Shown: positions 38,301 through 61,676, numbered from the stretch's first letter. The stretch: DNA of 64,000 nt from Thiobacillus sp. (GCF_018780105.1 NZ_JADMKC010000002.1:186001-250000); one strand, 5' to 3'. Notes: a model not told the origin generated them from the sequence alone. Program-made: numbers and translations.

Positions 38301-38316
38301 TGGCACGCCTTGTGCT
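38301..38316 (+). promoter_or_regulatory. Sigma54 promoter candidate of the porin-glnK-amtB operon
   Basis: TGGCACGCCTTGTGCT, one mismatch to TGGCACGN4TTGCW, about 50 bp before the porin start. Confidence 0.7.
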
Positions 38317-38364
38317 ATTAACCGCTTGCAATATTGCACTCTTCTTACTTCGGAGAATTTCAGC

Positions 38365-39132
38365 ATGAAAAAAATCGTTTCTGCACTGGCATTGCTTGGC
38401 ATGGTTGGCGCACCTGGCGTCGTGATGGCTGAAGAAACCAGTCCGCATACCCTGACCGCCAACGTCGGGTTGTACAGCAACTATATTTTCCGCGGCATTT
38501 CGCAAACCGGCAGCGACATCGCTCTGCAAGGCGGTTTTGATTACGCGCACAGCAGCGGTTTCTACCTCGGCACCTGGGGCTCCAACGTGGGCTGGATCGA
38601 AGACTACCAGGGCTACGACTCCGGCAATGTGGAAGTCGACGTCTACGGCGGTTTCCGCAGCAGCATCGGTGATAGCGGATTTACCTACGATCTGGGTCTG
38701 ATCCAGTACATGTACCCGGGCAAGAAAGGCGCAGCTGTCGACGCCGACACCACTGAAATGTATGCCGCGATGGGCTGGAAGTGGTTCACCGTCAAATATT
38801 CCTACTACCTCAGCAATGAAGTGTTCGGCTTTGCCACTGCCGATGGCTCCGACTATTTGGACATTTCTGCCAGCCTGCCGATCGGCGAAACCGGCCTGAC
38901 CGCTGGCGCGCACTGGGGCACGTTCAGCTTCGACAACAACAGCGCGCAGGATTACGACGACTGGAAAATCAGCTTGGCATACGACCTCGGCAAGTTGGGT
39001 AAGTTGTCGTCCGGCATGACCATCGGCCTGATGTACACCGACACCAATGCCGACGAGACCAAGTGGACCGACGTCAACGGCGAATACCTGGGTGACGGCA
39101 CCGCCACTGTCTGGATTTCCAAAGCTTTCTAA
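38365..39132 (+). CDS. TorF family putative porin
   Basis: Signal peptide then LTANVGLYSNYIFRGISQTGSDIALQGGFDYAHSSGFYLGTWGSNV; terminal Phe. Confidence 0.85.
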   Translation: MKKIVSALALLGMVGAPGVVMAEETSPHTLTANVGLYSNYIFRGISQTGSDIALQGGFDYAHSSGFYLGTWGSNVGWIEDYQGYDSGNVEVDVYGGFRSSIGDSGFTYDLGLIQYMYPGKKGAAVDADTTEMYAAMGWKWFTVKYSYYLSNEVFGFATADGSDYLDISASLPIGETGLTAGAHWGTFSFDNNSAQDYDDWKISLAYDLGKLGKLSSGMTIGLMYTDTNADETKWTDVNGEYLGDGTATVWISKAF

Positions 39133-39145
39133 TGGCTTGACCTGG

Positions 39146-39170
39146 AGGGGCGGAGCAGGTGTCCGCCCCT
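39146..39170. repeat. Hairpin between porin and glnK (possible attenuator or processing signal)
   Basis: AGGGGCGGA-GCAGGTG-TCCGCCCCT, perfect 9-bp stem. Confidence 0.6.
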
Positions 39171-39201
39171 CATCCCCTCTTTCCTTAATTTGGGAGACAA
39201 C

Positions 39202-39540
39202 ATGAAATTCGTAACGGCCATTATCAAGCCGTTCAAGCTGGACGAAGTGCGCGAGGCCTTGTCGGCCATCGGCGTTACCGGCTTGACGGTCACCGAAGTA
39301 AAAGGGTTTGGGCGCCAGAAGGGCCATACCGAGCTGTATCGCGGCGCGGAATACGTGGTCGACTTTCTGCCCAAGGTCAAGGTTGAAGTCGCGATCAAGG
39401 CTGAGCTGCTGGAGCGCGTGATCGAGGCCATCGAAAAGGCAGCCAACACCGGCAAGATCGGCGACGGCAAGATCTTTGTCACCAGCCTGGAGCAGGTCGT
39501 GCGCATCCGCACGGGCGAATCCGGCCCCGATGCCTTGTGA
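39202..39540 (+). CDS. glnK: P-II nitrogen regulatory protein
   Basis: [58 protein letters not shown]; uridylylation Tyr in YRGAEY. Confidence 0.95.
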
Positions 39541-58803: not shown

Positions 58804-59464
58804 CGCCCGCCCCTATGCCTACGCCCTGCCCGAGCGGCCACCGGCATTGGTCATCATCGACATGCAACGGGATTTTGTGGAACCCGGCGGCTTCGGCGAC
58901 GCCCTCGGCAACGACGTCGGCCGGCTGCAGGCCTGCGTGCCGGTGATCGCCCGCTTGCTGGCGACCGCGCGGCGTCTGGGTATGCCGGTGATCCACACGC
59001 GCGAGGCGCACCGGCCGGATTTGTCCGACTGTCCGTCGTCGAAGCGGCTGCGCGGCGACTGCCGGCTCAGGATCGGCGATGCGGGTCCGATGGGGCGGCT
59101 GCTGGTGGATGGCGAGCCGGGCAATGCCATCATCGAGGCGCTGGCGCCGGCGCCGGGCGAGGTCGAACTGGTGAAGCCGGGCAAAGGCGCGTTCTACGCC
59201 ACGCCATTGCAGGAAATCCTGCAGCAGCTTGGCGTGAGCCACCTGCTGTTTACTGGCGTCACCACCGAGGTGTGCGTGCAGACCACGATGCGCGAGGCCA
59301 ACGACCGCGGCTACAGCTGCCTGCTGGTCGAGGACGGCACCGAGAGTTATTTTCCCGAATTCAAACAGGCCACGCTGGACATGATCACCGCACAGGGCGG
59401 CATCGTCGGCTGGACGGCAACCTGCGCGGCCGTGTGCACCGGACTGGAACGGGCGTATGGCTGA
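58793..59464 (+). CDS. Second isochorismatase-fold cysteine hydrolase (candidate triuret/guanylurea-type hydrolase)
   Basis: [29 protein letters not shown] ... [14 protein letters not shown] ... [34 protein letters not shown]; triad intact. Confidence 0.85.
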
Positions 59465-59813
59465 GCGCGCGCCCCGACTGGTACTGAAAGATCTGGCATC
59501 CATTCCCCTGCGGCTCGGCGAGTTCGCCTGGGAGTCCCTCGGTCCCGGCGTGGAACTCAGCCGTCTCTATCAGGATGCGGCGGGCAATACCAAGCTCGCC
59601 CTGCTGCGCTACGCGCCCGGCGCGACCGTGCCCGAGCACCTGCACACCGGCATGGAATACATCCAGATCCTGGCCGGTTCCCAGCAGGACGAACGCGGGG
59701 TATACCGCGCCGGCACCCTGCTGGTGAGCATACCCGGCACGCGCCACAGCATCGCCAGTCCCGAAGGCTGCATCGCACTGGCAATGTGGGAAGCGCCCGT
59801 GCATTTTGTGTAG
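59457..59813 (+). CDS. ChrR-like cupin domain protein
   Basis: [66 protein letters not shown]. Confidence 0.85.
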
Positions 59814-59836
59814 AGTGGAGCGTTTTCAATACCCGC

Positions 59837-59870
59837 GGGTGGCCGGCCTGCCGCAGGCCGGCGCCCACCC
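59837..59870. repeat. Hairpin just upstream of atzF
   Basis: GGGTGG-CCGGCCTG-CCG-CAGGCCGG-cgc-CCACCC. Confidence 0.5.
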
Positions 59871-59882
59871 AGACCGACCGAC

Positions 59883-61676
59883 ATGATCCCCAATCTGAAT
59901 ATCGCCACGCTCCGTCGCCGCTATCAATCCGGCGACCTCACTCCGCTTGCCCTGGTGGACGACCTGCTTGCCCGCATGGCTGGCGAGGACACGCATGCCA
60001 TCTGGATCAGCCGCCTCGACGCCGAGACCCTGCGCGACTACGCCCGCAAGCTCGAAGGCAAGGACCCGGCGAGCCTGCCGCTGTACGGCATTCCCTTCGC
60101 CATCAAGGACAACATCGACCTCGCCGGCCTACCGACCACCGCCGCCTGCCCCGAATTCGCCTACACGCCCGAACGCAGCGCGACGGTCGTGCAGCGCCTC
60201 ATCGATGCCGGCGCCATTCCAGTTGGGAAAGCCAACCTCGACCAGTTCGCCACCGGATTGAACGGCACCCGCTCGCCCTACGGCGCCTGCCGCAACGCCT
60301 TCAACCCCGACTACATTTCCGGAGGCTCCAGTTCCGGCTCGGCAGTTGCGGTCGCGCTCGGCCTCGCGAGCTTTTCGCTTGGCACCGACACCGCCGGCTC
60401 CGGCCGTGTGCCGGCCGCGTTCAACCATCTGGTCGGCCACAAGCCGAGCTGCGGTGCGCTTTCCACGCGCGGCGTGGTGCCCGCCTGTCATTCGCTCGAC
60501 GCCGTGTCGATCTTTGCGCTGACCGCCGAGGACGCCGAGCGCGTGCTGGCGGTGGCCGCCGGCTTCGATGCCGAGGATGAATATTCAAGGCCGCTGGCGC
60601 CGCACGGCTTCGACTTCGGCCGCGCCGCGCATTTCAGATTCGGCGTGCCGAAGCAACAGGATCTGGCGTTCTTCGGCAACGCCGAGGCCGAGCGCCTGTT
60701 CGATGAAGCCGTGGCACGCATGCAGGCGCTCGGCGGCACGCCGGTCGAAATCGACTTCGCACCGTTTCTGCAGACCGCGCGCCTGCTGTACGGCGGCCCC
60801 TGGGTGGCCGAGCGCTACCTCGCCATCCGCGACTTCTTCGACGCGCAGTCCGACAAGGTCTTTCCGCCGGTGCGCGACATCATCGCCGGCGGTCGCGCCA
60901 TCAGCGCCGCCGACACCTTCGCCCACCTCTACAAACTGCGTGCGTTCAAGCGCACCTGCGATGCGGTGTGGAACGACATCGACGTGCTGCTCACCCCCAC
61001 CGCCGGCACGATCTATCGCATCGAAGACATGCAGGCCGACCCCATCCGCCTCAATTCCAATCTCGGTTACTACACCAACTTCATGAACCTGCTCGACCTC
61101 GCCGCCACCGCCGTGCCGGCCGGGTTCCAGCACGACGGCCTGCCGTTCGGCGTCACCCTGATCGCGCCGCCGCATCAGGACGGCCCGCTGCTGCATCTGG
61201 CTTCCAGAATGCAGCAGGCGCTCGGCGGCAAAACGGGCGCCACCGCGCACCCGCTGCCTGCTGCCGAAGCCCTGAACCTGCTGGCGAGCGGCCAGGTGCG
61301 CGTCGCCGTCGTCGGCGCCCACCTTTCCGGCCTGCCGCTCAACCCCCAGCTCACCGAACGCCGTGCGCGCAGGATTGCCACGACGCAGACCGCGCCGAAA
61401 TACCGCCTCTACGCCCTGCCCGACGGCAAGCGCCCCGGCCTGATCAAAGTGGAAAGCGGTGGCGCCGCCATCGCCTGCGAAGTCTGGGAAATGCCCGCCG
61501 CCGCCTTCGGCACCTTCGTCGCCGGCATCGCCGCGCCGCTCGGCATCGGCACGCTGGAACTGGCCGATGGCACCACCGTGAACGGCTTTATCTGCGAAGG
61601 CCTCGGCGTGGCCGGCGCGCAGGACATTACGGAATTCGGGGGGTGGCGGGCGTGGTTGGCGTCACGGGATGTATGA
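59883..61676 (+). CDS. atzF: Allophanate hydrolase
   Basis: Amidase signature GIPFAIKDNIDLAGLPTTAACPEFAY ... SGGSSSGSAVAVALGLASFSLGTDTAGSGRVPAAFN; C-terminal allophanate hydrolase domain. Confidence 0.93.
   Translation: MIPNLNIATLRRRYQSGDLTPLALVDDLLARMAGEDTHAIWISRLDAETLRDYARKLEGKDPASLPLYGIPFAIKDNIDLAGLPTTAACPEFAYTPERSATVVQRLIDAGAIPVGKANLDQFATGLNGTRSPYGACRNAFNPDYISGGSSSGSAVAVALGLASFSLGTDTAGSGRVPAAFNHLVGHKPSCGALSTRGVVPACHSLDAVSIFALTAEDAERVLAVAAGFDAEDEYSRPLAPHGFDFGRAAHFRFGVPKQQDLAFFGNAEAERLFDEAVARMQALGGTPVEIDFAPFLQTARLLYGGPWVAERYLAIRDFFDAQSDKVFPPVRDIIAGGRAISAADTFAHLYKLRAFKRTCDAVWNDIDVLLTPTAGTIYRIEDMQADPIRLNSNLGYYTNFMNLLDLAATAVPAGFQHDGLPFGVTLIAPPHQDGPLLHLASRMQQALGGKTGATAHPLPAAEALNLLASGQVRVAVVGAHLSGLPLNPQLTERRARRIATTQTAPKYRLYALPDGKRPGLIKVESGGAAIACEVWEMPAAAFGTFVAGIAAPLGIGTLELADGTTVNGFICEGLGVAGAQDITEFGGWRAWLASRDV

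Follow-up and report, generated by a model that had tools for sequence, protein, structure and literature searches.

Predicted nesting of a triuret/biuret cassette within a guanidine-assimilation operon, with a shared allophanate hydrolase, in a Thiobacillus genome

Widely present as nitrogen pollutants, guanidine and triuret are also products of fertiliser use or excretion. Guanidine carboxylase operons, as described in Vreelandella boliviensis (PMC12508155) and enterobacteria (PMC12186494), have the composition gca-cgdAB-atzF, encoding guanidine carboxylase, the carboxyguanidine deiminase CgdAB and the allophanate hydrolase AtzF, and are controlled by Guanidine-I/II riboswitches. The triuret/biuret operons of Herbaspirillum sp. 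BH-1 and Rhizobium leguminosarum 3841 (PMC7948467) cluster the triuret hydrolase TrtA and the biuret hydrolase BiuH with AtzF, and the triuret clusters of nitrifiers (PMC12625717) include a BMP-type ATP-binding cassette (ABC) transporter. Both types of system recur in a 64,000-nucleotide stretch of Thiobacillus sp. (GCF_018780105.1, NZ_JADMKC010000002.1:186001-250000; hereafter the window, with positions counted from its first base). Here three co-directional nitrogen-scavenging operons, for ammonium, guanidine and triuret/biuret, fill positions 38301-61676, and the triuret/biuret, or ureide, cassette is nested inside the guanidine operon and would use that operon's AtzF.

Like the described guanidine carboxylase operons, the locus has a Guanidine-I aptamer before an ABC importer, CgdA and CgdB, and a carboxylase with the diagnostic Asp1330; as in the enterobacterial examples (PMC12186494), a Guanidine-II switch is likely to precede gca. 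Unlike them, it has a nine-gene triuret cassette parting gca from atzF, a creatininase-family protein and a GmaS-like ligase, and at its head a sigma-54-type promoter motif. With the Herbaspirillum and Rhizobium operons it shares the clustering of TrtA, BiuH and AtzF and the residues that separate the two hydrolases, and with the nitrifier clusters the BMP-type transporter, but unlike in known triuret/biuret clusters the AtzF belongs to the lineage of guanidine operons, one of which encloses the cassette. The pathways are known ones, newly arranged; the history of AtzF is corrected, a layer of nitrogen control is added, and there is an accessory module besides. The whole account, of three sigma-54-headed operons, a nested cassette and a shared AtzF of guanidine lineage, is held with good confidence, and would clearly exemplify the building of one pathway within the operon of another, with triuret/biuret genes set between a riboswitch-controlled carboxylase and its former neighbour enzyme. 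The predicted genes from gca to atzF are:

47985..51593 (+): gca, guanidine carboxylase (TIGR02712, 1911 bits; D700 and D952)
51684..52376 (+): gntR, GntR/FCD regulator, first gene of the cassette (PF00392 and PF07729)
52642..53433 (+): tsx, Tsx-like outer-membrane channel (PF03502, 60 bits)
53442..54614 (+): bmp, BMP-family substrate-binding protein (PF02608, 149 bits; open reading frame 53421-54614, start set by eye)
54617..55651 (+): ABC permease 1 (open reading frame; 79-88% identity to permease 1 of the L087 and L219-L223 cassettes of relatives)
55648..56568 (+): ABC permease 2 (PF02653)
56591..57271 (+): biuH, biuret hydrolase (NF050097, 422 bits against a cutoff of 370)
57268..58803 (+): ABC ATPase of the BMP transporter (open frame; 77-85% identity to the ATPase of the L087 and L219-L223 cassettes)
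58793..59464 (+): trtA, triuret hydrolase of isochorismatase fold (303 bits to TrtA 6XIX against 207 to BiuH 6XJM)
59457..59813 (+): small ChrR-like cupin, candidate carboxybiuret decarboxylase (PF12973)
59883..61676 (+): atzF, allophanate hydrolase (TIGR02713, 812 bits)

AtzF comprises an amidase domain with the signature motifs and an AH_C domain, and passes the TIGR02713 cutoff. A preliminary description of the window, made from the sequence alone, had noted that this was the only AtzF in view, a statement that extends to the whole genome, a 3.32-Mb assembly in 62 contigs rated 100% complete (G000). The genome search for a second atzF that it had proposed came back negative, the other matches being two pieces of a single 486-aa amidase frame (36% and 30% identity, partial coverage), judged to be GatA-like. 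Wherever another congener examined has its guanidine-type gca locus intact, atzF is the next gene after gca, as it is in most of the order's other members; the gap in those congeners is mostly 3-12 bp (160 bp in one, where it holds a palindromic repeat). In the window this gap is 8,290 bp and contains gntR, tsx, bmp, the two permease genes, biuH, the ATPase gene, trtA and the cupin gene, atzF starting 69 bp 3' of the last. In an AtzF tree the window protein falls within the clade of the congeners' gca-linked enzymes (support 98/88), most other triuret operons having AtzFs that fall elsewhere. Because synteny and phylogeny agree, AtzF is read as the guanidine operon's own enzyme, parted from gca by the cassette; because the cassette lies between the two genes, TrtA and BiuH would feed their allophanate into this shared AtzF. 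That the guanidine and triuret/biuret routes meet at a single AtzF, as proposed earlier, is supported by its one genome copy and by a carboxylase with Asp at both diagnostic positions, 1330 and 1584.

The limits of the cassette are sharp. In a sliding nucleotide comparison gca and atzF match congeners at about 80-94% nucleotide identity over their full length, and the cassette matches the sister genus alone, its borders falling at the stop codon of gca and immediately ahead of the start codon of atzF. The gntR gene is about 78-82% identical in nucleotide sequence to the nested loci of the sister genus, and congeners have no gntR at that place. The nested order is also present in three genomes of the sister genus, L219, L220 and L221 (L221 and L088 being one metagenome-assembled genome), of which the AtzFs of L219 and L220 group with the sister genus in the tree; in two further genomes (L222/L087 and L223) the cassette and an AtzF of guanidine type are present with no gca in the vicinity. 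The sister genus was rejected as a donor of the complete nested locus by horizontal transfer, since gca and atzF are throughout more similar to those of congeners than to its own. Integration by a single crossover leaving a chimeric atzF was likewise rejected, as neither atzF nor the 3' end of gca shows a change of identity along its length. The pattern would fit an old nested locus in which recombination within the long genes on either side has removed or exchanged the cassette.

AtzF also appears beside carboxylase and biuret genes in other orders. Two congeners (L224, genome G437; L225, G421) have a urea-type carboxylase followed by atzF, biuH, the cupin gene and trtA, and a member of another family (L075) has gca-atzF followed by bmp and further genes to biuH. 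In L224 and L225 gntR lies after trtA, and one AtzF may there serve both the carboxylase and the triuret route.

The hydrolases of the third operon match TrtA and BiuH down to the residues that separate them, identifying it by sequence criteria as a triuret/biuret operon. BiuH scores 398 bits against the R. leguminosarum BiuH 6AZO, passes the NF050097 cutoff and has Tyr, Asp and Val, the BiuH alternatives, at the discriminating positions. TrtA is closer to TrtA than to any BiuH (207 bits or less), and retains the catalytic Asp, Lys and Cys together with F35, N41, E160, Q202 and I205, the five residues discussed as governing specificity in the published study of TrtA. The ChrR-like cupin adjoins trtA in more than 20 of 80 named trtA loci (L087-L166), from Proteobacteria, Cyanobacteria and others, and is a candidate for the carboxybiuret decarboxylase. 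As a whole, the cassette is predicted to encode the series triuret, carboxybiuret, biuret, allophanate.

The guanidine operon upstream of gca has the following predicted features:

41382..41397 (+): sigma-54-type promoter motif at the operon head (TGGCATGAGGGTTGCT, exact)
41445..41547 (+): Guanidine-I riboswitch aptamer (RF00442, 87.7 bits against a gathering threshold of 63, E=2.4e-14)
41605..42591 (+): ABC substrate-binding protein of SsuA/NMT1 type, putatively guanidine-binding (TIGR01728, PF09084)
42605..43411 (+): ABC permease (PF00528)
43414..44247 (+): ABC ATPase (PF00005)
44244..45014 (+): CREA, creatininase-family hydrolase (PF02633, 225 bits; alignment to 1J2T)
45026..46402 (+): GmaS-like gamma-glutamyl-amide ligase, annotated as glutamine synthetase type III (signature T61/S192/D205/F206)
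46415..47152 (+): cgdB, carboxyguanidine deiminase subunit (UAAP1, DUF1989; TIGR03425, 364 bits against a cutoff of 206)
47162..47815 (+): cgdA, carboxyguanidine deiminase subunit (UAAP2, DUF1989; TIGR03424, 347 bits against a cutoff of 285)
47927..47971 (+): putative Guanidine-II (mini-ykkC) riboswitch, sub-threshold (RF01068, 25.7 bits against a gathering threshold of 32)

Guanidine carboxylases score highest on the urea carboxylase model, and this is also the top-scoring model for the window carboxylase (TIGR02712, spanning residues 2-1199), which has the full-length architecture of biotin carboxylase, carboxyltransferase and biotin carboxyl carrier domains, with the biotin motif VESMKME at 1162. 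Guanidine carboxylases are distinguished from urea carboxylases by Asp in place of Asn at K. lactis position 1330, and by Asp at 1584 (PMC11410670). D700 of the window protein aligns to Asn1330 of 3VA7 and D952 to position 1584, and the Asp at 1330 rules out a urea carboxylase. The same pair of Asp residues is found in 48 of the 51 carboxylases examined, the others (L083, L224 and L225) having Asn. Adjoining the carboxylase are one UAAP1 and one UAAP2 member, both above cutoff, as expected of CgdAB. By these sequence features the second operon is assigned to guanidine assimilation: Gca would carboxylate guanidine, CgdAB would deiminate carboxyguanidine to allophanate, and AtzF would hydrolyse the latter.

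Expression of this operon would be gated by the leader Guanidine-I aptamer, the only one in the 3.32-Mb genome, and probably also by a Guanidine-II switch directly before gca. This second motif consists of two ACGN-loop hairpins, at -51 and -23 relative to the gca ATG. A hairpin pair at nearly equal spacing is found in most gca leaders of relatives, and scores above gathering in seven of them (L051, L055, L068, L069, L076, L219 and L228). As its position and spacing match those of relatives, several above gathering, the window element probably works like a riboswitch; as its own score of 25.7 is under 32 bits, it is reported as likely but unconfirmed. A palindromic repeat, CTGGACCCCGGC...GCCGGGGTGACGA, also lies in the cgdA-gca gap (47816-47905); a related repeat is present in the gca-atzF gap of L228 (G440), and there are 3 genome copies with no more than 2 mismatches.

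The product annotated as a type III glutamine synthetase lies between the creatininase-family gene and cgdB. Its best matches among PDB structures are the glutamate-methylamine ligase 9QUR and GmaS 7CQL (PMC7948447). It is like GmaS in the catalytic Asp177, Glu186 and Arg312, in Trp300, in the pocket residues Tyr147, Glu179 and Lys30', and in lacking both the Asp50' and the Glu-flap Glu published as essential for the use of ammonium by glutamine synthetase, which are replaced by Thr and, as in GmaS, Trp. Unlike GmaS, it is linked to guanidine genes and its pocket has Ser, Asp and Phe for Gln175, Asn188 and Trp189, giving one carboxylate more. The Ser and Asp replacements occur in all linked members, and Thr, Ser, Asp and Phe replace Ala48, Gln175, Asn188 and Trp189 in all glutamine synthetase-like copies of gca, creatininase and cassette loci, that of the window included. 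An even sample of the class contained 11 other genomic copies with this signature, 7 of them beside cgd and gca genes; the corresponding figure for homologues with a GmaS-like pocket (Ala, Gln, Asn, Tyr) was 0 of the 4 examined.

The ligase might alternatively be an ordinary glutamine synthetase capturing released ammonia, and its neighbour a true creatininase. NCBIfam does class the former as a type III glutamate-ammonia ligase, above cutoff, its gene lies in an ammonia-releasing operon, and the creatininase-family metal motif is present in CREA. This explanation is nonetheless unlikely: both ammonium-use residues are replaced in the ligase, another glutamine synthetase is encoded in the genome (at C9), and CREA scores 145 bits on the creatininase equivalog TIGR04448, below the cutoff of 235, and differs at the creatinine-site positions of Glu122 and Trp174 in an alignment read by eye. 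The earlier label of 'GS-like' is not to be taken in the sense of an ammonium-assimilating glutamine synthetase. The sequence assigns the ligase instead to a GmaS-like group with a pocket signature of its own, and the two proteins to an accessory guanidine module of putative function. A common annotation is thereby corrected for a subfamily met repeatedly in guanidine operons, and a step of guanidine metabolism yet to be characterised is indicated. It is tentatively suggested that the pair may constitute an unrecognised, nitrogen-controlled guanidine branch with two interchangeable versions, in which the ligase would gamma-glutamylate guanidinium or an alkylguanidine and the hydrolase would process the adduct or a related amide.

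The module occurs in two versions, interchanged in one slot within the genus. The second has the order substrate-binding protein, permease, ATPase, creatininase, ligase and a NikR-family gene, and precedes cgdB-cgdA-gca in L049, L068, L069, L076, L219, L226, L228-L232 and L235-L238; it stands alone, without gca, in L070-L072. Leaders of the second version carry sigma-54 motifs, and in NikR-bearing loci with the leader covered the search gave no Guanidine-I aptamer. Genome G014 (L056) has second-version proteins, no detected NikR, and a retained Guanidine-I aptamer. The ligase also occurs near guanidine genes without the creatininase, between the ATPase gene and cgdB in L086 and downstream of atzF in L059. 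The combination of a creatininase with a guanidine carboxylase operon was not found in the accessible literature that was searched, the exception being a creatininase near archaeal biuH (PMC12625717); neither glutamine synthetase nor creatininase is mentioned in PMC12186494 or PMC11410670.

The first operon and the control elements of the first and third are predicted as follows:

38193..38238 (+): two NtrC-like dyads, GCAC-N7-GTGC (GCACGAAAAACGTGC at 38193, GCACCCTGGTGGTGC at 38224), upstream of the porin-operon promoter motif
38301..38316 (+): sigma-54-type promoter motif at the head of porin-glnK-amtB (TGGCACGCCTTGTGCT, 1 mismatch)
38365..39132 (+): TorF-family porin (TIGR02001, 166 bits against a cutoff of 47; ATG taken as start)
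39202..39540 (+): glnK, P-II protein (NF007946, 182 bits)
39546..41087 (+): amtB, ammonium transporter (TIGR00836, 436 bits)
52562..52577 (+): sigma-54-type promoter motif at the ureide operon head (TGGCATGATGGATGCT, 1 mismatch)
52581..52590 (+): GntR-type palindrome (TTGTATACAA; the only window match with no more than 1 mismatch, chance 0.16)

The porin-glnK-amtB genes would form an ammonium uptake operon, the first of the three. Profile searches of the window proteins recovered every gene that the preliminary description had listed, all on the + strand and close to where it had placed them; its operon contents stand, save that the ATPase gene of the BMP transporter, between biuH and trtA, had been omitted. 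Its account of regulation included the Guanidine-I riboswitch, and made no mention of the Guanidine-II motif, the GntR-type palindrome or the three sigma-54-type motifs. The latter were found by scanning both strands of the 64 kb for TGGCAYR-N4-TTGCW with no more than one mismatch and the GG and GC fixed. Only three matches were obtained, all at operon heads (38301, 41382 and 52562), against a shuffled-sequence expectation of 2.3 per window anywhere and 0.017 in the three leaders; genome-wide, exact matches number 19, against 1 for the reversed control. A match precedes the substrate-binding protein gene in all 31 relatives with enough leader (33 have a homologous gene, and some of these genes may head other operons), and the motif is kept before porin homologues in L048, L050 and L051. 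Before tsx, TGGCATGATGCATGCT stands at the equivalent place in L088/L221, L219, L220 and L223, and the motif is not conserved in L087/L222 or L097. Each operon would accordingly be headed by a sigma-54-type promoter, presumably activated by NtrC. The GntR-type palindrome overlaps the start predicted from the 52562 promoter, recurs before tsx in L219-L223 and L097 (no more than 1 mismatch), and is probably bound by the GntR/FCD repressor. FCD-domain regulators commonly bind carboxylates and both routes make allophanate, which is hence a natural candidate for the effector.

The atzF of relatives comes immediately after gca, downstream of the Guanidine-II switch; that of the window is preceded by gntR, a sigma-54-type promoter motif, its probable operator and the remaining cassette genes, so that a cell with guanidine alone would need either read-through of about 8 kb of cassette or relief of GntR repression to reach it. 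Growth on guanidine may depend on expression of the ureide operon, as previously proposed, read-through from the guanidine operon being equally possible. How a guanidine-grown cell gains access to an enzyme whose gene follows that of a repressor and the promoter of a different operon is a testable regulatory question. Scans for sigma-70 promoters and intrinsic terminators gave counts near those of shuffles and nothing convincing at the cassette edges. A hairpin in the cupin-atzF gap was rejected as a terminator, as it has no T run; its z-score is only -1.5.

It may also be asked whether the nesting has any regulatory meaning: nitrogen-regulated operons could have clustered by chance, each remaining independent, with AtzF supplied by read-through or by promoters within the cassette. 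Clustering is common among nitrogen-regulated genes, read-through is possible since the scan found no terminator-like site between gca and gntR, and a urease alpha gene elsewhere in the genome indicates that not all pathways are gathered at the island. Such independence is nevertheless improbable, as the nested order recurs in the sister genus, one AtzF accompanies carboxylase and biuret genes in the other arrangements (L224/L225 and L075), and AtzF is present in a single copy. Least probable of all, and largely refuted by the tree and the sliding comparison, is the view, along the lines of the preliminary description, that AtzF is native to the ureide operon, the guanidine operon having lost its own and leaning on its neighbour, for although atzF is the last gene of the ureide operon, close behind the cupin gene, and cassettes without a nearby gca (L087/L222 and L223) likewise end in it, the window AtzF groups with the congeners' gca-linked enzymes, its gene is about 80-93% identical to theirs in nucleotide sequence over nearly its whole length with no switch to sister-genus sequence, and the AtzFs of the family's gca-less cassettes also belong to the guanidine-type clade.

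Several points weigh against the main reading. The divergence of the cassette between the two genera is similar to that of its flanks, which is compatible with more than one date and number of nesting events. The Guanidine-II element scores under the gathering threshold, has ACGU as its first loop where two ACGR-loop hairpins define membership, and when isolated adopts an alternative long hairpin in folding. NtrC-like dyads are perfect only before the porin operon, those before the second and third operons having one mismatch. A second atzF in a gap of the assembly is possible, though unlikely. Beyond the nested locus, a 240-aa open reading frame lies downstream of atzF on the opposite strand (61768-62490, -), and the region 3' of atzF, to about 63600, has a G+C content of 0.567, lower than that of the island, and is unmatched in the relatives compared.

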